A DNA stretch of 64,000 nt from Thermodesulfovibrio yellowstonii DSM 11347 (GTDB taxonomy: Bacteria; Nitrospirota; Thermodesulfovibrionia; Thermodesulfovibrionales; Thermodesulfovibrionaceae). The notes under the pieces were generated by a model, which worked only from the letters and a program-made list of their open reading frames with translations, searched no databases and had not been told where the DNA came from. The stretch spans positions 1,478,001 through 1,542,000 of the forward strand of contig NC_011296.1 of assembly GCF_000020985.1 (NCBI RefSeq). Reading direction: 5' to 3'. Every line of letters starts with the position of its first letter. The first letter of the stretch is position 1. Positions 2,025 to 32,956 of the stretch are shown one piece after another. A program made the translations under genes and the position numbers.

Positions 2025-3107
2025 ATGTATAAAACTGGCGTTGCAAATCTTCCCCTTCATAGTGGAAAAGCTCCTCAGTGGCTTTTTAAACGAATGATTG
2101 CACTGTCAAGAGCTATTATGGAATTAATGGTTATTGAACTTGGAAAAGAAGAAGTTTTAAGAAGACTTTCAGACCCTTTCTGGTTTCAGGCTTTTGGATG
2201 TATTTTAGGGTTTGACTGGCATAGTAGCGGAGTTACTACAACTGTAACTGGTGCTATAAAAGAGGGATTGCGCGGCATTGAACACGAATTAGGTTTATTT
2301 GTTGCTGGAGGAAAAGCAAAAAGAGCACTCAACACACCTCATGAGATAATGCAATATGCTGAAAAAATTGGCTTTAATCCTGATAGTTTCATTTATGCAA
2401 GCAGACTCTCTGCAAAAGTAGATAATGTAGCTGTGCAGGATGGATTTAATTTATATCATCATACAATCATCTTCACTCAAGAAGGACACTGGTGTGTTAT
2501 TCAGCAGGGAATGAATGAAAATCTTTCAACAGCAAGAAGATATCACTGGTTAAGTTTTTCTCTTAGAAGTTTTGTTGAAGAGCCTCATGAAGCAGTTTGC
2601 TGTGACATAAAAACTAAAACATTAAACTTTACAGCAAAGGAAGCATCAGAACTTAGAAAAACCTCAGTGATGGTTTCGCAAGAAAATCCTGAAAAAATAA
2701 TAAGAGAAATTAAAAAGTTCAGAGAACTTAAACTCCCGCGAAGACATTCTATAATAATCAATGATGTAAACCCAGAAAATTTCTATAAGATTTTTTTAAG
2801 GACTTATGAAAAACAACCTGCTAATTTTGAAGAACTCCTTGAAATCAAAGGACTTGGAGCAAAGGCTTTGAGAGCAATTGCACTAACATCAGAACTTATA
2901 TATGGAACTCCTATCACCTTTAAAGACCCTGCCAGATACAGTTTTGCTCATGGTGGTAAAGACAAAATTCCATATCCAGTTAACAGAAAACTTTACGACA
3001 AAACAATTGATGTAATGAAAAAAGCTATTGAAGATGCAAAGATTGGCAGAATAGAAAAACTCTCAGCATTGAGAAGAATATCAAAAATTACACCATTCCA
3101 CTCATAA
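2025..3107 (+). CDS. DUF763 family protein with a helix-hairpin-helix
   Basis: 360 residues. The opening TGVANLPLHSGKAPQWLFKRM and the following FGCILGFDWHSSGVTTTVTGAIKEGL are recognisable as DUF763, a family common in archaea and thermophiles with no established function. Around residues 265-295 the stretch FEELLEIKGLGAKALRAIAL reads as a helix-hairpin-helix (hydrophobic-x-GLG-x-K/R pattern), which usually binds DNA non-specifically. A nucleic-acid role is therefore plausible but is inference. The gene stands alone, transcribed away from truA and convergent with the glycosyltransferase downstream, with a 6-base overlap at its 3' end. Confidence 0.85.
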   Translation: MYKTGVANLPLHSGKAPQWLFKRMIALSRAIMELMVIELGKEEVLRRLSDPFWFQAFGCILGFDWHSSGVTTTVTGAIKEGLRGIEHELGLFVAGGKAKRALNTPHEIMQYAEKIGFNPDSFIYASRLSAKVDNVAVQDGFNLYHHTIIFTQEGHWCVIQQGMNENLSTARRYHWLSFSLRSFVEEPHEAVCCDIKTKTLNFTAKEASELRKTSVMVSQENPEKIIREIKKFRELKLPRRHSIIINDVNPENFYKIFLRTYEKQPANFEELLEIKGLGAKALRAIALTSELIYGTPITFKDPARYSFAHGGKDKIPYPVNRKLYDKTIDVMKKAIEDAKIGRIEKLSALRRISKITPFHS

Positions 3108-4325
3108 TTCTATTGTTGATAGTATTTTTATCACTTCTTCAGGTTTTATATCAAAAAGACAGTTGCTTATTTTAGTTCCTTTACAGCCATCCTGTCCACA
3201 TGGAATGCACTGCCAGTCTCTCTGGATAACTATGTTTTTACCAAATTTCTGGATTCCATTTCTTTCTGGGTACGCATCCTTTTCAGCACTATTATCCCAT
3301 GGACCCCAATGAAATGCTCCACTTGGGCCAAAAAGAGCAACTACTGGTTTTCCCAATGCTGCTGCTATATGCATTGGTGCGGTGTCTATCCCAAAATACA
3401 TGTCACAGACAGATGAGACTGCTATTAGTTGTCTTAATGTTAATTTGCCTGCAAGGTTGATTAAAAAAGGAAACTCCTTACTACACTCAAAATGACATAG
3501 GTTATCTTGGGTGTTCACTATTTGAGAGTTATTACAGGAATTGAACTCAGTAGATGTCCTCAAAAAATTAAGTATAGAATTAACTTTATTTATCTCTTTT
3601 TCAGCGTGAGCAGAGGTGATTACCACGTTAAAGCCTTTATCCATAAACCATCTTATAACCTCAGCCATGTATTCATCTTTCCAGCATTTAAAAAGCCATC
3701 GGGATGTGGGATGAATATGAACAACTTTTTTTATATAGGGAGATTTTTCGGTATTAAGTTTGCTTGGAACAGGCTGAATATATGTCTCAGAATGACAAGA
3801 AAAAATCAATTCTCTTGCCCATTTTTTCTCATTTTCTGTAACATTAAGAATAACTTCAGGTCTTGTAGTTTTTATTCCAATCCTTGCAAGTACTTCAAGA
3901 TTCTGTAATACAGTATGTTTACATCCATCTATCTCAAAAAGTTTAGTATAAAAATATTGTTTACCTAAAAACCCTCTGGATTTTATACCGATTCTTATTT
4001 TAGCACCTGATAAATATGATATCACTGCTGCTCTATCCCCTCCTGTAAGGTCTATGCTGGTATCAAATCCCATTTTCCGTATTTTCCTTAAAAATTTTAC
4101 TTCCTCTAAATACCTTTTAAAAGCTGGTAATTCTTTTATGCTTCTATCATAGGTAATAATTTCATCTAAATAAGGATTATTTTCAAGCACATCCTCTGTT
4201 CCTTTGTTTACAAGAGTGGCAACAAATGAATCAGGGAAGTTTTCTTTTAAGGCTTTGAAAACCGGAGTTGTGAGCAAAACATCTCCTATATGACGAAGTT
4301 TTATTACAAGAATCTTTTTATACAC
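3102..4325 (-). CDS. glycosyltransferase family 9 (heptosyltransferase-like) with two repeat-derived insertions
   Basis: 407 residues, against about 340-360 for the family. It probably transfers a heptose or related sugar to the LPS core at the inner membrane face. The N-terminal KILVIKLRHIGDVLLTTPVFKALK and the C-terminal CDMYFGIDTAPMHIAAALGKPVVALFGPS are classic GT9 motifs; HIHPTSRWLFKCW is the donor-site region. Two stretches look inserted. Residues about 175-199 begin CHSETY, and residues about 255-286 contain CHFECSKEF. Both are encoded by copies of the TGTCATTyTGAG palindromic repeat and explain the extra length. The start is GTG at 4325, overlapping the end of the upstream glycosyltransferase gene by 22 bases. 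Acceptor specificity cannot be told. Confidence 0.85.
   Translation of the reverse strand: MYKKILVIKLRHIGDVLLTTPVFKALKENFPDSFVATLVNKGTEDVLENNPYLDEIITYDRSIKELPAFKRYLEEVKFLRKIRKMGFDTSIDLTGGDRAAVISYLSGAKIRIGIKSRGFLGKQYFYTKLFEIDGCKHTVLQNLEVLARIGIKTTRPEVILNVTENEKKWARELIFSCHSETYIQPVPSKLNTEKSPYIKKVVHIHPTSRWLFKCWKDEYMAEVIRWFMDKGFNVVITSAHAEKEINKVNSILNFLRTSTEFNSCNNSQIVNTQDNLCHFECSKEFPFLINLAGKLTLRQLIAVSSVCDMYFGIDTAPMHIAAALGKPVVALFGPSGAFHWGPWDNSAEKDAYPERNGIQKFGKNIVIQRDWQCIPCGQDGCKGTKISNCLFDIKPEEVIKILSTIEL
3466..3500 (-). repeat. palindromic repeat copy inside the GT9 gene (second insertion)
   Basis: On the minus strand this reads TGTCATTTTGAGTGTAGT followed by AAGGAG, the common half of the GTCATTCTGAG repeat seen elsewhere in the window. 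It is in frame and encodes CHFECSKE of the glycosyltransferase. Confidence 0.5.
3781..3800 (-). repeat. short palindromic repeat fragment inside the GT9 gene (first insertion)
   Basis: On the minus strand TGTCATTCTGAGACATAT is the end module of the repeat family. It encodes CHSETY of the glycosyltransferase at residues 177-182. It is a fragment only; the partner half is not evident. Confidence 0.45.
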
Positions 4326-6196: not shown

Positions 6197-7105
6197 TTAT
6201 TTGGTTATATCTTCTATGTTTTTTTCTTCAGTCTCTACGAATTCATCTGAATGGGTATAAATCTCTATTCCAAGCTTTTCTGCCACAGGTTTAGCACGAG
6301 GATCTACCATAGGTGAAATTACTATAACTCTATCAACTTTTCTTTGATGTTTCCTCTCGTAAAACTCCTTTTCCCGCCATAAAGTATACATATCAGATTT
6401 GCTCATAGAAGATTTGATCTCGCATGCAATTACCATTCCGTTTCTTATTATTAAATCAAGCTCTATTTGATCAGGATGACCGAAAACTTCACCCGTATGA
6501 TCATAATCAATGTATCTCATAACTTCTATACGGAAAGACTCCTCAATGATTGCTTTAAGTCCGTTGCGGAAGGACTCTTCTGAGTAAAGTCCCCATCTTG
6601 CACCAAGTGCCCCAATTGTATAGAGATGTCTTCTATCAATTTTTTCCAGTCTCAGTAAAATTTGATTAATTGTTTTTTGGTTCTCTTCCCATTTTCTATT
6701 CCATTCTGCTTGTGTCTCTTCCCATCTCTTCTGACTCTCTTCCCATTTTCTATTCCACTCTGCTTGTGTCTCTTCCCATCTCTTCTGACTCTCTTCCCAT
6801 TTTCTATTCCACTCTGCTTGTGTCTCTTCCCATCTCTTCTGACTCTCTTCCCATTTTCTATTCCACTCTGCTTGTGTCTCTTCCCATCTCTTGCTCCACT
6901 CTTCCCATTTTTTCTCAAATCTTTCTTCAACCTGCAAGATTTGCTGATAAATCTGTTCTATTCTGTCTTCTGTTTTTTTCTTGGGAGGATAATACAGTTT
7001 TGTTACTTGCAGAATATACCTGCGGAAAGAGGGATCACTCTTTAAAATTTTAGGCAACTCATTCTTAATTATTTTTTTGACTTCTTCAATGTTCATCTCA
7101 ACCAT
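6197..7105 (-). CDS. DUF3782-like protein, coiled-coil repeats plus PD-(D/E)XK-like nuclease fold
   Basis: 302 residues. The N-terminus (about 1-55) precedes a highly charged, Trp-rich coil (about 58-145) containing four tandem copies of an 18-residue unit WEETQAEWNRKWEESQKR. The C-terminal half has a YIDYDHTGEVFGHPDQIELDLIIRNGMVIACEIKSS segment. Its D-x(n)-E-x-K pattern (ELDL...ACEIK) is the core of PD-(D/E)XK nucleases. Proteins of this type are frequent in thermophiles and cyanobacteria and have no known role. The 18-residue units are encoded by a nearly perfect 54-bp DNA repeat, so copy number may vary between strains. Long ORFs on the other strand and frame here are shadows of this repeat. 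Confidence 0.75.
   Translation of the reverse strand: MVEMNIEEVKKIIKNELPKILKSDPSFRRYILQVTKLYYPPKKKTEDRIEQIYQQILQVEERFEKKWEEWSKRWEETQAEWNRKWEESQKRWEETQAEWNRKWEESQKRWEETQAEWNRKWEESQKRWEETQAEWNRKWEENQKTINQILLRLEKIDRRHLYTIGALGARWGLYSEESFRNGLKAIIEESFRIEVMRYIDYDHTGEVFGHPDQIELDLIIRNGMVIACEIKSSMSKSDMYTLWREKEFYERKHQRKVDRVIVISPMVDPRAKPVAEKLGIEIYTHSDEFVETEEKNIEDITK
6684..6899 (-). repeat. tandem array, 4 x 54 bp, in frame in the DUF3782-like gene
   Basis: Copies begin at 6684, 6738, 6792 and 6846 and are almost identical; the first differs at one base (CCATTCTGC for CCACTCTGC) and the last diverges at its final bases. A partial fifth unit follows from 6900. Because 54 is a multiple of 3, gain or loss of units keeps the frame. 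Confidence 0.95.
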
Positions 7106-18939: not shown

Positions 18940-19160
18940 GAGGATGTTCAATTACTAATGATCATTCCGAGCACCCTCAATGGGTGCGAGGAATCTGACC
19001 CTTAGGGTCACCCTGAGCGAAGCGAAGGGTCTCCTCCTTAAATCGGAAAGAGGAGATTCCTCGTCGCTAACGCTCCTCGGAATGACAGATGGAGGTAAAT
19101 GAAAAATATTAAATTCTAATTCCTTGATTTATAAGAAACTGGGAAATTTTGAACAGTCTC
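18940..19160 (+). mobile_element. MITE-like repeat element, copy 1 (221 bp)
   Basis: The ends are GAGGATGTTCAA (18940-18951) and TTGAACAGTCTC (19149-19160), which are inverted repeats with few mismatches. The core (about 18961-19100) is GC-richer than the surroundings and is a series of nested hairpins, such as GACCC/GGGTC and ATTCC...GGAAT modules. It is almost identical to the inverse complement of the copy at 45411-45634, differing by one inserted base in the core, whereas the outer parts have diverged. There is no coding potential. It fills the 5' leader between the efflux promoter and the DUF169 gene. No clear target duplication is seen here. Confidence 0.75.
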
Positions 19161-20018: not shown

Positions 20019-20645
20019 TTGGAGGTAGTTAACATAAGCAGGCGTTCAGGATATCAATCAAAGAAAAGAATAATTGATGCAGCCATAAAAGTATTCTCCC
20101 AGTATGGCTACAGTGGTGCTACTATGAGAATGATTGCAAAGGAAGCAGAAATAAGTGTTGGAGGAGTTTACCTTTATTTTAGGAATAAGGAAGAACTTTT
20201 CCTGTTTTTAATGAGAGAAAAAATAAAAGATTTAGAATTAAAGCTCTCTTCTATTTTGAACAGAGTAAGAAGTTCTAAAGAAGCACTTAAAGAGTATGTC
20301 AAAAGTGTTATTGCGCATGCAACAGAAAATAGAGAATTAATACTTATACATACCAGAGAACTGGGTTTTACCTTCGGAATGGAAATTAAAAAGGAGTTTT
20401 TTGAGAAACAAAAAAAATTACTAAAAGGTGTAATTGAGAAAGGTGTTCAGTTAGATGAGTTTAAAGAATATAACTCAGAGGAGGCTGCAAAGCTGATAAT
20501 GCATATCATAAGAGGATATGTATTGTCAGTGGTTGAAGATCCTGAAAATCTCATTGACCCCGATGAATGCGTAAAGATTATTTTCAATGGGTTGCTGAAA
20601 GTAAAAGGGGATTCTTCGCCCTCGCTTTGCTCGCGCTCAGAATGA
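20019..20645 (+). CDS. TetR/AcrR-family transcriptional repressor
   Basis: 208 residues from the TTG at 20019. The N-terminal TetR helix-turn-helix is clear (SKKRIIDAAIKVFSQYGYSGATMRMIAKEAEISVGGVYLYFRNKEELF, about residues 14-62); the remainder is the helical ligand domain. The start is uncertain. The only good Shine-Dalgarno sequence (GGAGG, 20021-20025) lies inside the first codons, and the codon at the right distance is ATA at 20034, not ATG/GTG/TTG. The last residues (about GDSSPSLCSRSE) are encoded by a palindromic repeat at 20610-20646. Probably represses its own operon through the palindrome at 18863-18898. Confidence 0.88.
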   Translation: MEVVNISRRSGYQSKKRIIDAAIKVFSQYGYSGATMRMIAKEAEISVGGVYLYFRNKEELFLFLMREKIKDLELKLSSILNRVRSSKEALKEYVKSVIAHATENRELILIHTRELGFTFGMEIKKEFFEKQKKLLKGVIEKGVQLDEFKEYNSEEAAKLIMHIIRGYVLSVVEDPENLIDPDECVKIIFNGLLKVKGDSSPSLCSRSE

Positions 20646-24800: not shown

Positions 24801-24991
24801 TGACCTCCCTTGCACTTTTCTTTGGAATTCTTCCACTTGCCATAGCAAGAGGCGCAGGTTCAGGAGCGATGAATGCAATCGGAGTTGCCATTGAAGGTGG
24901 AGTTCTTGCAGGAACCTTCGTAAGCATAGTGTTTGTTCCCCTTTTCTTCGTGCTTATTTTGAAGCTCTTCAAAGTAAGGACAGTGAAATGA
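21860..24991 (+). CDS. RND multidrug efflux pump (HAE1, AcrB/MexB type)
   Basis: 1043 residues, normal for the hydrophobe/amphiphile efflux-1 family. A proton-driven inner-membrane trimer. The start LSKFFLERPVFAWVIAIAIM is the family hallmark. The proton-relay pair is in GLLVDDAIVVVENVERIM (TM4, about residue 405) and the essential Lys in GLSSKNAILIIQFARD (TM10, about 938). Two large periplasmic loops carry the porter domains. It overlaps the adaptor stop by one base and the outer-membrane factor start by four bases (ATGA), so the three are translationally coupled. The substrate is unknown; codon use and GC look slightly higher than in neighbouring genes. Confidence 0.97.
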   Translation: MLSKFFLERPVFAWVIAIAIMGAGCLAIYNLPIAQYPSLAPPSIYIQATYPGASAETVENSVTQIIEEKMTGLDRLLYMSAVSDSSGSCRIELTFEPGTDPDLAWAKVQNKLQLAMPSLPEAVQKTGISVGKATRNYLLIVSLISEDGRLDAYDLRDYLKSNVEKVLARIEGVGEVETFGFPYAMRIWIEPHKLVSYGLTISDVISAIKAYNVEVSGGQLGGAPAKEGQRLNAPIIVQSMLKEPDEFASIPVRINPDGSSVKIKDVARVELGTDYYDIEAFYNGKPAAALAVRPLPGANALDVADKVKNKINELSRNFPAGVKVVYPYDTTPFTKVAINEVVKTLIEAIVLVFLIMWLFLGSLRATLIPTITVPVVLLGTFAVLGLAGYSINMLTMFAMVLAIGLLVDDAIVVVENVERIMREEKLPVRQAVIKSMEQITSALIGIGVVLSAVFAPMAFFTGSTGIIYRQFAITIISAMLLSVFVALTLAPVLCVTFLRPHSEKQRERKNIFYYFNLIYEKFYGFFFKSRFVYTKVVENSFRKVPVYICVYIIIVVALGIILMKLPTSYLPEEDQGMMLAQVILPSGSTLEQTEEILSEVKDYFLQKEKDAVDSIITLAGMSFSGRAQSAGMAFIKLKDWHLRDSSTLRVKAIQARAMMHFSQNKKAMIFVFPPPSIIELGNATGFDLQLMDMGGLGHQKLMEARNQFLYLANQDRRLKNVRPNGMDDIPEYKVDIDWQKAGALGVPINSINNTISAAFGSSYVNDFIKGGRVKRVYVQADTPYRMLPEDMNRLYVRNNDGKMVPFSSFASGKWIYGSPRLERYNGFPSMNIWGEPATGTSSGEAMKAVEEIVSKLPKGVGYAWTGSSYQERLATGQAPILYGFSVFVIFLCLAALYESWTIPITNLILLPLGIFGSAVATWLMGLYNDVYFQIGFLVTMGLSSKNAILIIQFARDRIKQGEEFQRATVEAATIRYRPVIMTSLALFFGILPLAIARGAGSGAMNAIGVAIEGGVLAGTFVSIVFVPLFFVLILKLFKVRTVK

Positions 24992-26439
24992 AGTTAAGAA
25001 AGATTAAGGAAAAGATTCTTCGACTGCTTTGCAGGCTCAGAATGACAAAACAAGCCTTAATTTTAATGCTATCCCTGTTGCTTCTTTCCTGCACAATGAT
25101 TCCCGAATACAAAAGACCTGATGCACCTGTGCCTAAAGAATGGCCTCAAGGTGATGCTTACAGTTCCATTAATTATGAAAAATCACCAAAAGCAACAGAA
25201 ATTAAATGGAATGAATTTCTCACTGAAACAAAACTTCAGAAAATAATTGAAAAAGCTTTATCTAACAATAGAGACCTTCGACTTTCAGCCCTTAATGTTG
25301 AGAGAGCCGCTGCCTACTATGGTATTCAAAGAGCAGAGCTTCTTCCAGCAGTGGATGCAATAGGCACGGGTTATAGAGAGAGAACCCCTGCAGACCTTTC
25401 ACGGACAGGCAGGGCAGAGACAACTTCTAAATACAGTGTAAGTCTTGGGATTACCTCTTGGGAGATTGATTTATTTGGAAGGCTTCGGAGTCTAAAAGAA
25501 ATGGCACTTGAGCAGTATCTTGCCCAAGAACAAACTCACAGGGCAGCAAGACTCTCTCTTATTTCTGCTGTTGCTACTGCCTATTATACCTATGCAACAG
25601 ATAAAGAGAATCTCAAACTGGCAAAAGAAACCCTTAAAAATCAGCAGGAATACTATGAATTAATGAAAAAACGATATGAAGTTGGAGTAATCTCAGAAAT
25701 AGACCTTCACAGAGTGAGGACACAGGTAGATACAGCCCGTGAAGCTGTAGCACGATATACTCAGGCACTGGCTCAGGATAAAAACACCCTTGACCTTCTT
25801 GCTGGTGAGATACTAACTGAAGAACTTTTGCCAGAAGGACTTGAGGTCTTAACCTCTCCAAAGGATATTTCACCAGGGCTTTCTTCTGATATACTCCTTA
25901 ATCGTCCTGATATTATGGCAGCAGAGCACACACTTAAGGCATACAATGCTCAGATAGGTGCAGCAAGAGCAGCTTTTTTCCCGAGGATTTCACTTACGAC
26001 GCTTTTTGGAACAGCATCAGCTGAGCTTTCAGGATTGTTTGAATCAGGCTCTAAGGCATGGAGTATTCAGCCCCAGGCAATAATGCCAATCTTTGATGCA
26101 AGAGTATGGGCAGCCCATGAAGCTGCAAAGGTCGAAAGACAACTTGCTCTTGTTAATTATGAAAAGACCATTCAGACAGCTTTCAAAGAAGTATCCGATG
26201 CCTTAGCAGTGAAAGGCACAGTAGATGAACAGCTACAGGCAATTGAATCTCTTGTGCACTCTCTAAGGGAGACCTACAGGCTTGCAAAAATAAGATATGA
26301 AAATGGAATTGACAGCTACATGAGTGTTCTTGATGCGCAGAGGTCTTTGTTTCAGGCACAACAGCAGCTTAACAGCCTTAAGCTTCAAAAATATGCAAAT
26401 CTATTAACCTTATATAAAGTTATTGGAGGAGGAGAATAA
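24988..26439 (+). CDS. outer-membrane efflux lipoprotein (OprM/NodT type)
   Basis: 483 residues from ATG at 24988, or 465 from ATG at 25042. An outer-membrane factor that completes the RND tripartite pump; two OEP domains (about 65-260 and 285-475), with SPGLSSDILLNRPDIMAAEHTLKAYNAQIGAARAAFFPRI typical of NodT/OprM proteins. From 25042 the protein opens MTKQALILMLSLLLLSC, a standard lipoprotein signal with lipobox Cys. The 18 residues before it are basic and encoded partly by a palindromic repeat (25013-25047), so the later ATG, part of the repeat's AATGAC, is a real alternative. The upstream ATG overlaps the pump stop and has AAGGA nearby. Confidence 0.93.
   Translation: MKLRKIKEKILRLLCRLRMTKQALILMLSLLLLSCTMIPEYKRPDAPVPKEWPQGDAYSSINYEKSPKATEIKWNEFLTETKLQKIIEKALSNNRDLRLSALNVERAAAYYGIQRAELLPAVDAIGTGYRERTPADLSRTGRAETTSKYSVSLGITSWEIDLFGRLRSLKEMALEQYLAQEQTHRAARLSLISAVATAYYTYATDKENLKLAKETLKNQQEYYELMKKRYEVGVISEIDLHRVRTQVDTAREAVARYTQALAQDKNTLDLLAGEILTEELLPEGLEVLTSPKDISPGLSSDILLNRPDIMAAEHTLKAYNAQIGAARAAFFPRISLTTLFGTASAELSGLFESGSKAWSIQPQAIMPIFDARVWAAHEAAKVERQLALVNYEKTIQTAFKEVSDALAVKGTVDEQLQAIESLVHSLRETYRLAKIRYENGIDSYMSVLDAQRSLFQAQQQLNSLKLQKYANLLTLYKVIGGGE
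25013..25047 (+). repeat. palindromic repeat at the 5' end of the outer-membrane factor gene
   Basis: AAGATTCTTCGACTG...GCTCAGAATGAC is a member of the dispersed family. It encodes KILRLLCRLRMT in the annotated frame, and its AATGAC supplies an alternative start codon directly before the lipoprotein signal peptide. Confidence 0.75.
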
Positions 26440-30790: not shown

Positions 30791-31205
30791 TAAGGAGTTC
30801 ATAAAAACAAAACTTTTTCTGATTAAATCATATTACGAGGAGCTTGAACAGATACTTTCCTTCTCTGATTCAGAAATAAAAGAGGATTTTATAAAATTGA
30901 GAGCTATAGAAAGAGTAATTCAGCTCATTGTAGATGAAATTATTGATATTAATAATCATATTGTGAGATATCACCCATTAAAATTACCCAATGACTTTCA
31001 AAGTAGTTTCTTGATTCTTGCCGAAAATAATATTCTTCCAGAGTCTTTCGCAAAAAAAATCGCACCAGTTGTTGGATTGAGAAACAGGCTTGTTCACAGA
31101 TACGAAAAAATTGATCTGGATCTCCTCTTGAATTTAATCAGAAAAAATAAAGACGACTTTATTGAATATGTCAAACATATTCTGGATTTTATTCAAAAAT
31201 CCTAA
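30759..31205 (+). CDS. hepT: HepT-like HEPN-domain toxin RNase
   Basis: 148 residues from ATG 30759, or 140 from GTG 30783 (VIDKEFIKTKL), which is closer to the usual HepT start. A four-helix HEPN domain with the R-x4-H-x-Y catalytic motif RNRLVHRY near residue 112; the tyrosine is the AMPylation site in known pairs. HEPN toxins cleave RNA. Conserved IERVIQLIVDEIIDINNHIV matches the family. Its stop overlaps that of the dual ATPase by 4 bases (convergent). Confidence 0.88.
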   Translation: MKDLKSLPVIDKEFIKTKLFLIKSYYEELEQILSFSDSEIKEDFIKLRAIERVIQLIVDEIIDINNHIVRYHPLKLPNDFQSSFLILAENNILPESFAKKIAPVVGLRNRLVHRYEKIDLDLLLNLIRKNKDDFIEYVKHILDFIQKS

Positions 31206-32956
31206 TCTTTTTCACTCTCCTTTATATAATCAACAAAGGCTTCTTGAAGGGGAACATGACTAAGGGTGGTTTCAAACTGTTTAATCCCTGCATTTTTTAA
31301 TGTCTCATTGATCTTTTGTTGGGTAACCTCAGGTTCAAAGCTTCTTATGAATATTTTACTACCATAGATTGAGATTTCTTTAAAATTTTTCGTGAGTAAA
31401 TCATACACTTCCATAAATCTTTCACTCTTTATCTGAATAAGGCTTCCAGAGATTTTTTCAGAGTTTTTCTTTATTTCTTCAGGGCTTCCTTCTGCTATTA
31501 CTCTTCCCCGATGCATAAGACAGAGGCTATCACAGTTTTCAGCTTCATCCATGTAGTGAGTTGAAACAATCACTGTTACATTTTTGTCTCTTGAAAGCTT
31601 AAAAATAATCTTCCAGAAACTTCTCCTTGCAACTGGGTCAACTCCGCTTGTTGGTTCATCAAGAAATAATACAGGTGGTTCATGTAAAAGTGCACAGGCA
31701 AGAGTAACTCTCTGCCTTATTCCAAGTGGTAGGTCTTTGGTTAGTCTTTCCTCAAATCCTTTCAGTCCAAGCATTTCAATTACTCCGCTGAAGTCATTAT
31801 TTTTTACACTGTAAAGTCCTGCATAAAGCCTCATGTTTTCCTTTACTGTAAGGTCTCTGTAAAGAGAGAATCTCTGAGACATATAGCCGATAATACCCCA
31901 GACTTTGCTTCTGTCCTTTTTTACATCATAGCCAGCAATTTTAATTTCTCCCTCTGTTGGCTCAAGTAGTCCACACATCATCTTTATTAGAGTTGTTTTG
32001 CCTGCACCATTTGGTCCAAGAAGTCCAAGTATCTCTCCCTGCCCTACTTCTAAGTTAACTGAGTCAACCGCCTTAAACTTTCCAAATGTTTTTGTTACTG
32101 AATGGCATGAAATGATAATTTTTCCACCCTCTATGGAGATTCCTCGCAGACCCTTCGCCTGCGGCTCAGGGCTACGCTTCGCTTCGGCTCGGAATGATGA
32201 AGGATAACTAATATTCAGTTCAGCCTTTTGCTTTGCTTCTGCTACTTTCTCTATGAAAACCTTTTCCAGATTACCCAGTTCCTCAGGTCTGTCCTGAAGA
32301 AGTATCCTTCCTTCATGCATTAAAGCAATCCTGTGGCATCTCTCTGCCTCATCCATGTAGGATGTGGAAAGCAAAACAGTCACACCTCTTTGTCTTACAA
32401 GTCCGTGAATAATATTCCAGAAATCCTGCCTTGAAAGGGGGTCAACTCCTGTTGTTGGTTCATCAAGAAGAATTATGTCTGGTAGATGTAGCAGAGTACA
32501 TACAAGGGCAAGCTTTTGTCTCATTCCACCAGAAAGTGCCTTTGCCTGTCTTTGAAGAAATAGAGTTAGCCTTGTTATTTCAAGTAATGTTTTTTTGTTT
32601 TTTTCAAATACCTCATCAGGAATTAGTCTAAGTCCTCTGAAAAACTCAATATTTTCCTCAATTGAAAGGGAGTCATATAGATTAAGTCCCAATCCCTGAG
32701 GCATGTAGCCGATAAGAGCTTTAACTTTCTCAGGATTTTTGGTAACATCTATGTCATTGACAAAGGCTTTGCCACCATCTGCCTTAAGCACCCCCGCTAA
32801 AATCTGTATTATTGAGGTTTTTCCAGCACCATCTGGACCAATAAGACCAAAAACTTCGCCTTTGTTAACAGAAAAAGAAACATTATCAACTGCTTTGATT
32901 TTTTTATAGCTTTTACAGAGATTTTCAACTTTTATGACAAAATTTTTCTCAATCAT
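31202..32956 (-). CDS. dual ATP-binding ABC protein (YbhF-like), repeat-derived linker
   Basis: 584 residues with two ABC ATPase domains. Domain 1 (about 7-230): Walker A GPDGAGKTS (40-48), LSGGM (142-146), Walker B IILLDEP (161-167). Domain 2 (about 280-510): GPNGAGKTT (314-322), degenerate signature LPLGIRQRV, VLFLDEP. Fused ATPases of this type energise YbhS/YbhR-like permeases, and both are nearby. The linker (about 251-274, YPSSFRAEAKRSPEPQAKG) is encoded by a palindromic repeat at 32137-32202. The gene is downstream of the HlyD-like protein in the same direction. The ATG at 32956 lacks a strong ribosome binding site. Confidence 0.93.
   Translation of the reverse strand: MIEKNFVIKVENLCKSYKKIKAVDNVSFSVNKGEVFGLIGPDGAGKTSIIQILAGVLKADGGKAFVNDIDVTKNPEKVKALIGYMPQGLGLNLYDSLSIEENIEFFRGLRLIPDEVFEKNKKTLLEITRLTLFLQRQAKALSGGMRQKLALVCTLLHLPDIILLDEPTTGVDPLSRQDFWNIIHGLVRQRGVTVLLSTSYMDEAERCHRIALMHEGRILLQDRPEELGNLEKVFIEKVAEAKQKAELNISYPSSFRAEAKRSPEPQAKGLRGISIEGGKIIISCHSVTKTFGKFKAVDSVNLEVGQGEILGLLGPNGAGKTTLIKMMCGLLEPTEGEIKIAGYDVKKDRSKVWGIIGYMSQRFSLYRDLTVKENMRLYAGLYSVKNNDFSGVIEMLGLKGFEERLTKDLPLGIRQRVTLACALLHEPPVLFLDEPTSGVDPVARRSFWKIIFKLSRDKNVTVIVSTHYMDEAENCDSLCLMHRGRVIAEGSPEEIKKNSEKISGSLIQIKSERFMEVYDLLTKNFKEISIYGSKIFIRSFEPEVTQQKINETLKNAGIKQFETTLSHVPLQEAFVDYIKESEKD
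32137..32202 (-). repeat. palindromic repeat encoding the linker of the dual ABC ATPase
   Basis: GATTCCTCGCAGACCC...GGCTCGGAATGATGA on the plus strand: the same ATTCCTCG/CTCGGAAT frame as the MITE core, with internal GCTTCGCTTC-like repeats. It is in frame and translated on the minus strand as an Arg/Ser/Pro/Ala-rich stretch of about 22 residues between the two ATPase domains. Confidence 0.8.

Follow-up and report, generated by a model that had tools for sequence, protein, structure and literature searches.

The glycosyltransferase gene and its long loops

A GT9 glycosyltransferase gene of Thermodesulfovibrio yellowstonii contains two segments that resemble dispersed repeat DNA, which raises the question of how such DNA came to lie within a gene that still appears intact. 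We analysed the 64-kb stretch of DNA that holds the gene (the window), part of a genome consisting of one contig of 2,003,803 bases, together with orthologues of the gene. Very probably, the loops of GT9 enzymes tolerate dispersed repeats that enter coding DNA, and two of these loops in T. yellowstonii are filled by old, decaying copies of a hairpin element. The features of the gene are collected in Table 1.

Table 1. The GT9 gene, its three loops and the repeat-derived elements within them (positions in the window)
Feature	Position	Strand	Description	Evidence
GT9 (heptosyltransferase III-like) gene	3102-4325	-	407 aa, GTG start	Pfam, NCBIfam, Foldseek
Loop S1	3723-3803	-	residues 175-201, FSCHSETYIQPVPSKLNTEKSPYIKKV; 27 aa vs 5-11 aa in insert-free orthologues	
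TGTCATTCTGAG core in S1	3786-3797	-	codes C177-E180 (CHSE)	
Loop S2	3462-3560	-	residues 256-288, RTSTEFNSCNNSQIVNTQDNLCHFECSKEFPFL; 33 aa vs 4-8 aa in insert-free orthologues	
Decayed hairpin element in S2	3468-3497	-	TGTCATTTTGAGTGTAGTAAGGAGTTTCCT; colinear with the cleaner copy of orthologue L007	
Loop S3	3234-3296	-	residues 344-364; baseline length in the window protein (21 aa)	

The 407-aa protein matched Pfam Glyco_transf_9 (PF01075) at 1.5e-31 and scored 216.6 bits with NCBIfam TIGR02201 (heptosyltransferase III), above the cutoff of 170.2, which places it in GT9. A Foldseek search using the AlphaFold2 model revealed similarity with the GT9 structures 3tov (E 8e-24), 1psw (8e-20) and 6dfe (7e-16), and the predicted fold is by these matches a GT-B fold like that of WaaF/WaaC. 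PADLOC matched nothing on the protein. Judged from its sequence, the gene is an ordinary and intact heptosyltransferase-like gene of GT9, in agreement with the initial annotation, and the enzyme is probably working with its loop peptides translated. The annotation had also described the protein as about 50 residues longer than its relatives. The 72% identical orthologue of Thermodesulfovibrio sp. N1 (L022, genome G007) has 360 aa, lacks both inserts, and has S1, S2 and S3 loops of 5, 6 and 21 aa, in line with this description. The baseline loop lengths are 11 aa for S1, 4-8 aa for S2 and 21-23 or 4 aa for S3, compared with 27, 33 and 21 aa in the window protein.

The two loops (given as residues 175-199 and 255-286) had been said to hold TGTCATTyTGAG modules. 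The pattern TGTCATTYTGAG is present in the gene at 3486-3497 and 3786-3797, both on the minus strand, and the modules start at residue 177 (CHSE) and residue 277 (CHFE), inside the respective loops. The window contains 8 such places at up to one mismatch, against 1.18 expected, and none of 100 shuffles reached 8. The AlphaFold2 model has a mean pLDDT of 80 and is confident outside the loops, while pLDDT falls below 50 at residues 179-197 and 258-278. The structure prediction suggested by the annotation thus gave the expected picture, with two low-pLDDT segments each lying between a predicted helix and a predicted strand (164-178 and 201-205 around S1, 242-253 and 288-292 around S2). Both inserts are predicted to be disordered and to lie outside secondary structure. 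In the S3 region, residues 334-337 are below 50, and 10-residue blocks over 331-360 have values of 59-66.

A hairpin element dispersed in the genome

A genome-wide search for TGTCATTCTGAG with up to one mismatch revealed 104 places, against 6 for the reversed control, and exact TGTCATTCYGAG occurs 69 times, against once for the reversed pattern. The element has the consensus TGTCATTCY-GAG-variable stem-loop-RGAATCTCC, with about 100 copies, and extended copies read TGTCATTCY-GAG-stem-loop-stem-(C)GRRGAATC. The hairpin measures about 26-38 nt from TGTCATTC to GAATC. Its arms covary: position 4 of TTCY and the nucleotide preceding GAATC combine as C-G in 29 copies, T-A in 11, T-G in 5 and C-A in 1 (Fisher p 3e-6). 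The inner stems also vary in sequence yet pair (GGCAC/GTGCC, CACCC/GGGTG, GGGGTC/GACCCC). About 60% of the inspected copies in T. yellowstonii overlap no ORF of at least 100 aa, although intergenic DNA is a minor fraction of such genomes; this distribution was read from strict pattern searches and short stretches covering few repeat units, and the gene context beyond the named examples consists of ORFs rather than annotation.

In T. yellowstonii the element is inserted in frame in many unrelated genes, namely those for LeuRS, HypF, NuoC (N-terminal), an AcsB/CdhC-like subunit, HsdS, an AmgK-like kinase, CobN and two GT9 proteins. The second GT9 gene of T. yellowstonii, a 359-aa paralogue (L041:1034-2110, minus strand, at about 411.3 kb), has a hairpin at the S1 place in the opposite orientation and in another frame. 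Near-matches inside genes with PPPQNEKT, LSQNDCKK and FSFHSEERL look native and were set aside by eye; we take these genes to be Gmd, Adk and RsmH, respectively. The hairpin also encodes part of two proteins in the window, a TolC-like outer membrane protein (24988-26439, plus strand) at its N-terminus and a TetR-like regulator (20019-20645, plus strand) at its C-terminal tail. In another Thermodesulfovibrio genome (G012), 205 exact TGTCATTCYGAG cores were found, often in tandem at 21-33 nt spacing; its relative G009 has 1.

A resident Y1 (RAYT) transposase was considered as the mover of the hairpin and rejected for T. yellowstonii, whose genome has no match to PF01797 at E<=0.001; the family is present in 37 of the 61 genomes of our set. 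Neither a target-site duplication nor a mobilising enzyme was identified. An Rfam scan of the window returned one tRNA only and no match to the hairpin, so that at gathering scores the element corresponds to none of the RNA families on record.

Considering the covariation of the arms and the position of most T. yellowstonii copies outside ORFs, the repeats could act at the RNA or DNA level, through mRNA folding, ribosome pausing, or a nucleoid or repair signal, with the peptide as a by-product. Heptamer arrays elsewhere have been proposed to be regulatory in excerpts of PMC4679880 and PMC2700814, which would fit such a role. However, the GT9 copies of T. yellowstonii have lost hairpin pairing (TTTTGAG...AAGGAGTTT) and the frame is still kept, so we regard a role at this level as quite improbable.

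The window holds further repeats. A tandem duplication of about 51.2 kb extends from window position 18960 to at least 45553, with genome copies at 1496960, 1548162 and 1599365. The segment 18960-23500 recurs 51.2 kb downstream at 100% identity, and position 1599365 has a further copy of the boundary repeat. The TGTCATTCY-GAG hairpin element is part of the composite in which the boundary falls. A fused ABC transporter ATPase (31202-32956, minus strand) has a repeat-like linker, SYPSSFRAEAKRSPEPQAKGLRG, that joins its two ATPase domains, and 54-nt tandem repeats at 6621-6944, within an ORF at 6197-7105 (minus strand), encode the 18-residue repeat RWEETQAEWNRKWEESQK.

Presence and absence of the inserts in orthologues

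We compared 93 orthologues from Thermodesulfovibrionales and Deltaproteobacteria MAGs, with one genome per species, many of them MAG-derived, and with the loops delimited by alignment. Both inserts are missing from L022 and the first from L012 (G003), and the first loop of L010 and L011 is at baseline. L006-L009 have TGTCATTCYGAG-type inserts in both loops. On the core tree, hairpin inserts are found in L006 with L007 and in L008 with L009, and the first insert is missing from L010-L012 and L022. Because both inserts are common to sister species, they are old rather than recent and predate the split from these species.

In the T. yellowstonii genome the exact repeat match at each GT9 site is only about 12 nt, which could be taken as a chance likeness between the repeat and native loop sequences. 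However, the gene contains two such 12-mers, at orthologous positions at which sister species hold longer and cleaner elements, and residues of this kind are absent from orthologues without the repeat. Chance likeness therefore has a negligible probability of being the explanation. L007, L008 and L009 have longer or cleaner hairpin sequence than T. yellowstonii at one or both places, as in loop 2 of L007 (TGTCATTCTGAGCGAGGCGAAGAATCTCC) and loop 1 of L009 (TGTCATTCCGAGCAAATGCGAGGAATCCCC), and the in-gene elements of T. yellowstonii are recognisable mainly through the longer copies that these orthologues retain at the corresponding positions.

The presence/absence comparison had been proposed in the initial annotation, and the observation named there as decisive against it, the same residues in homologues without the DNA repeat, was not made among the 93 orthologues. 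The presence and absence of the inserts, together with the disorder predicted for the loops, support the claim that surface loops tolerate peptides derived from repeats. The claim that such peptides can be fixed is supported at the species level only, the level reached with one genome per species.

With the inserts the protein is about 13% longer, as might be expected if the gene were decaying and the inserts were an early step of pseudogenisation. However, the reading frame is uninterrupted in all Thermodesulfovibrio orthologues of the comparison and the GT9 motifs are invariant, and both the TIGR02201 score and the confident fold outside the loops argue against decay, which we consider extremely improbable.

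The same three loops are refilled by unrelated repeats

The 93 orthologues have 66 insertions that exceed the median by 7 aa or more, and 59 of them are concentrated at three of the 307 inter-anchor positions. In Thermodesulfovibrio, S1 and S2 hold TGTCATTC hairpins. The S1 loops of L021, L114, L123, L146 and L182 hold CCCCCTTAG..AAGGGGG-type elements (CCCCCTT..AAGGGGG), and GGGGACTGTCCC palindromes were found in S2 of L013-L016, L149 and L182 and in S3 of L015 and L016. Tandem arrays of 7-nt units occupy S2 (CACTCGT, AGCTATC, TCACGCA, TTCACGG) and S3 (TTTCAAA, GTTCCAA, AGAAGAC, GGGGCAA), with at least six distinct arrays across the GT9 loops. The initial annotation had proposed two independent insertions. 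The two inserts stand, but the proposal understated the extent of the process. Across the order, a third loop takes part and the repeats belong to several families unrelated to one another, and other core enzymes show the same.

Heptamer periodicity at p<=0.01 was detected in 18 of 93 S2 loops and 21 of 93 S3 loops, compared with 2 of 279 core windows. A 7-nt periodicity with the same unit at many loci per genome was found in orthologues and not in the window gene. Because the lag-7 signal in S1 is limited to one weak case (L126), S1 appears to take hairpins and palindromes rather than arrays. The lengths of S2 cluster at 4, 6 and 11 aa and extend to 18 aa, as expected for 21-nt steps. L013, L015, L016 and L018 have palindromes within or next to heptamer arrays. 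The idea that palindromes always lie within such arrays was rejected: flanking arrays reached significance around a subset of the copies only (L070, L013, L015, L016 and L069), so the nesting is recurrent and not general.

The loops differ even between close relatives. At 85-89% core identity, one, two or three loops differ within a pair (L014/L114, L014/L016, L013/L116), and all three differ between L014 and L114 at 87%. On a quick core tree, in which 34 of 90 forks have less than 80% support, the minimum numbers of changes of loop state, which are not insertion counts, are 8 for S1, 21 for S2 and 11 for S3. The diversity of the repeats that occupy a given loop among relatives suggests that the GT9 loops are landing pads for repeat DNA.

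The concentration in GT9 also raises the possibility that the inserts are adaptive, in that surface loops of a lipopolysaccharide enzyme tune acceptor choice, partner binding or protease exposure and the repeats are raw material for selection. The GT9 gene is a strong hotspot for the GGGGACTGTCCCAGATTTACGG-type 22-mer, a stretch of the GGGGAC palindrome: 6 of its 16 exact copies in the 61 genomes lie in this gene, including both copies in G057. Furthermore, the only exact TGTCATTCYGAG in the single 1.82-Mb contig of G009 is the copy inside the GT9 gene. However, some of the 6/16 share is accounted for by shared descent, and the repeat family, length and sequence found in a given loop vary among close relatives. 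LeuRS, AlaRS, HemC, UvrA and CarB behave alike, which fits tolerance better than a function specific to GT9. We consider an adaptive origin improbable.

Repeat-filled loops in other enzymes

Repeat-filled loops were also found in LeuRS and about twenty other core enzymes. The LeuRS loop before HxTIKRV (L280 and relatives L281-L299) holds hairpins in G000, G003, G014 and G012 and heptamers in G048, G025, G057 and G028. Hairpins thus occur within Thermodesulfovibrio and heptamers within other families, a replicate independent of GT9. The LeuRS match of G057 (C205), like those of G044 and G032, contains one in-frame TGA; this could be a sequencing error, a frameshift or a repeat-borne stop.

All 16 CACTCGT arrays in the 61 genomes lie in ORFs named by NCBIfam or by alignment: BioA, IspE, LeuRS (two species), FabF (two species), HypF, PyrK, RfaF, CbiD, a P-type ATPase, UvrA, CobQ, HemC, PurL and GT9. 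Most AGCTATC arrays also lie inside core-enzyme ORFs, among them UvrA, LpxK, Ddl, DapF (two species), Dxs, NuoG, CarB and CobQ, and TTTCAAA arrays occur in HemC, AlaRS, CobQ and AroC. In PurL, two species (L209, L216) differ in the array that occupies one and the same loop, and in RfaF of G028, a GT9 paralogue, a heptamer array occupies the S2 place.

Because the arrays are not depleted from genes, they might reach translated DNA through a process that is dedicated or biased towards genes and then serve as targets for palindromes, lengthening the loops of essential enzymes in 7-residue steps; we put this forward tentatively, as a rather unlikely extension. Either preferential insertion into genes or faster loss of arrays elsewhere could account for the abundance of heptamer arrays in genes.

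The reading that we prefer is one of tolerance. Dispersed non-coding repeats of the host would repeatedly enter coding DNA, and only stop-free inserts with a length of 3n nt would survive, in tolerant disordered loops. The GT9 fold would offer three poorly ordered loops that accept extra residues. Since only such inserts survive in such loops, the same loops would be refilled by whatever repeat family is active in a lineage, and a 7-nt unit would help because 21 nt encode one heptapeptide cycle whichever of the three frames is read. The S1 and S2 inserts of T. yellowstonii would then be hairpin copies acquired before the split from its sister species and now decaying. Most likely, the repeats are selfish or born by slippage and persist where a loop tolerates an in-frame, stop-free insert. 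The inserts are probably near-neutral; the long retention of some of them could alternatively reflect selection.

Relation to known repeats and implications

RPE (Ogata et al. 2000, 2002) are described in excerpts of PMC10969869 as short palindromic repeats of several families that are inserted in frame in unrelated Rickettsia genes and whose peptide is compatible with the host protein. The hairpin resembles them as a short palindrome in frame within unrelated genes. However, RPE are about 150 bp long and belong to Rickettsia, whereas the hairpin measures about 26-38 nt and the present hosts are free-living Nitrospirota and Deltaproteobacteria MAGs, in which 7-nt arrays join in and loops are refilled by unrelated families. 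The hairpin system works like RPE but probably does not belong to that family. It is also similar to REP elements and MITEs, which are small multi-copy hairpin repeats without a gene of their own, but T. yellowstonii lacks the Y1 transposase (TnpA_REP) and no target-site duplication was seen.

Dispersed 7-nt tandem arrays with one dominant unit per genome are known from Xanthomonas, Nostoc and Beggiatoaceae, where they are mostly intergenic (68% in Nostoc PCC7120) (PMC4692102, PMC4679880). The arrays of the order studied here are likewise dispersed with a dominant unit per genome, but those sampled lie mostly inside genes. In Geobacter metallireducens, tandem heptanucleotide elements within genes were noted and read as regulatory, according to excerpts of PMC2700814, which give the unit as GGACCGG, in contrast to CACTCGT, AGCTATC, TTTCAAA and others here, and contain no mention of a protein-loop analysis. 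A literature search with partial coverage, including few subscription journals, returned precedents for both kinds of repeat and none for the same loops being refilled by unrelated families.

These results extend coding repeats of the Rickettsia type to free-living bacteria and add 7-nt arrays as a second source. Profile-based annotation and structural work on such lineages should be alert to repeat-derived segments in core enzymes. In dozens of species, unrelated short peptides sit in corresponding loops of the same essential enzymes, which amounts to a natural, replicated insertion-tolerance experiment. Whether the peptides are merely tolerated or used is now a directly testable question. 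The pattern of insertions maps permissive sites directly and would show how selfish or slippage-born DNA turns into protein sequence.
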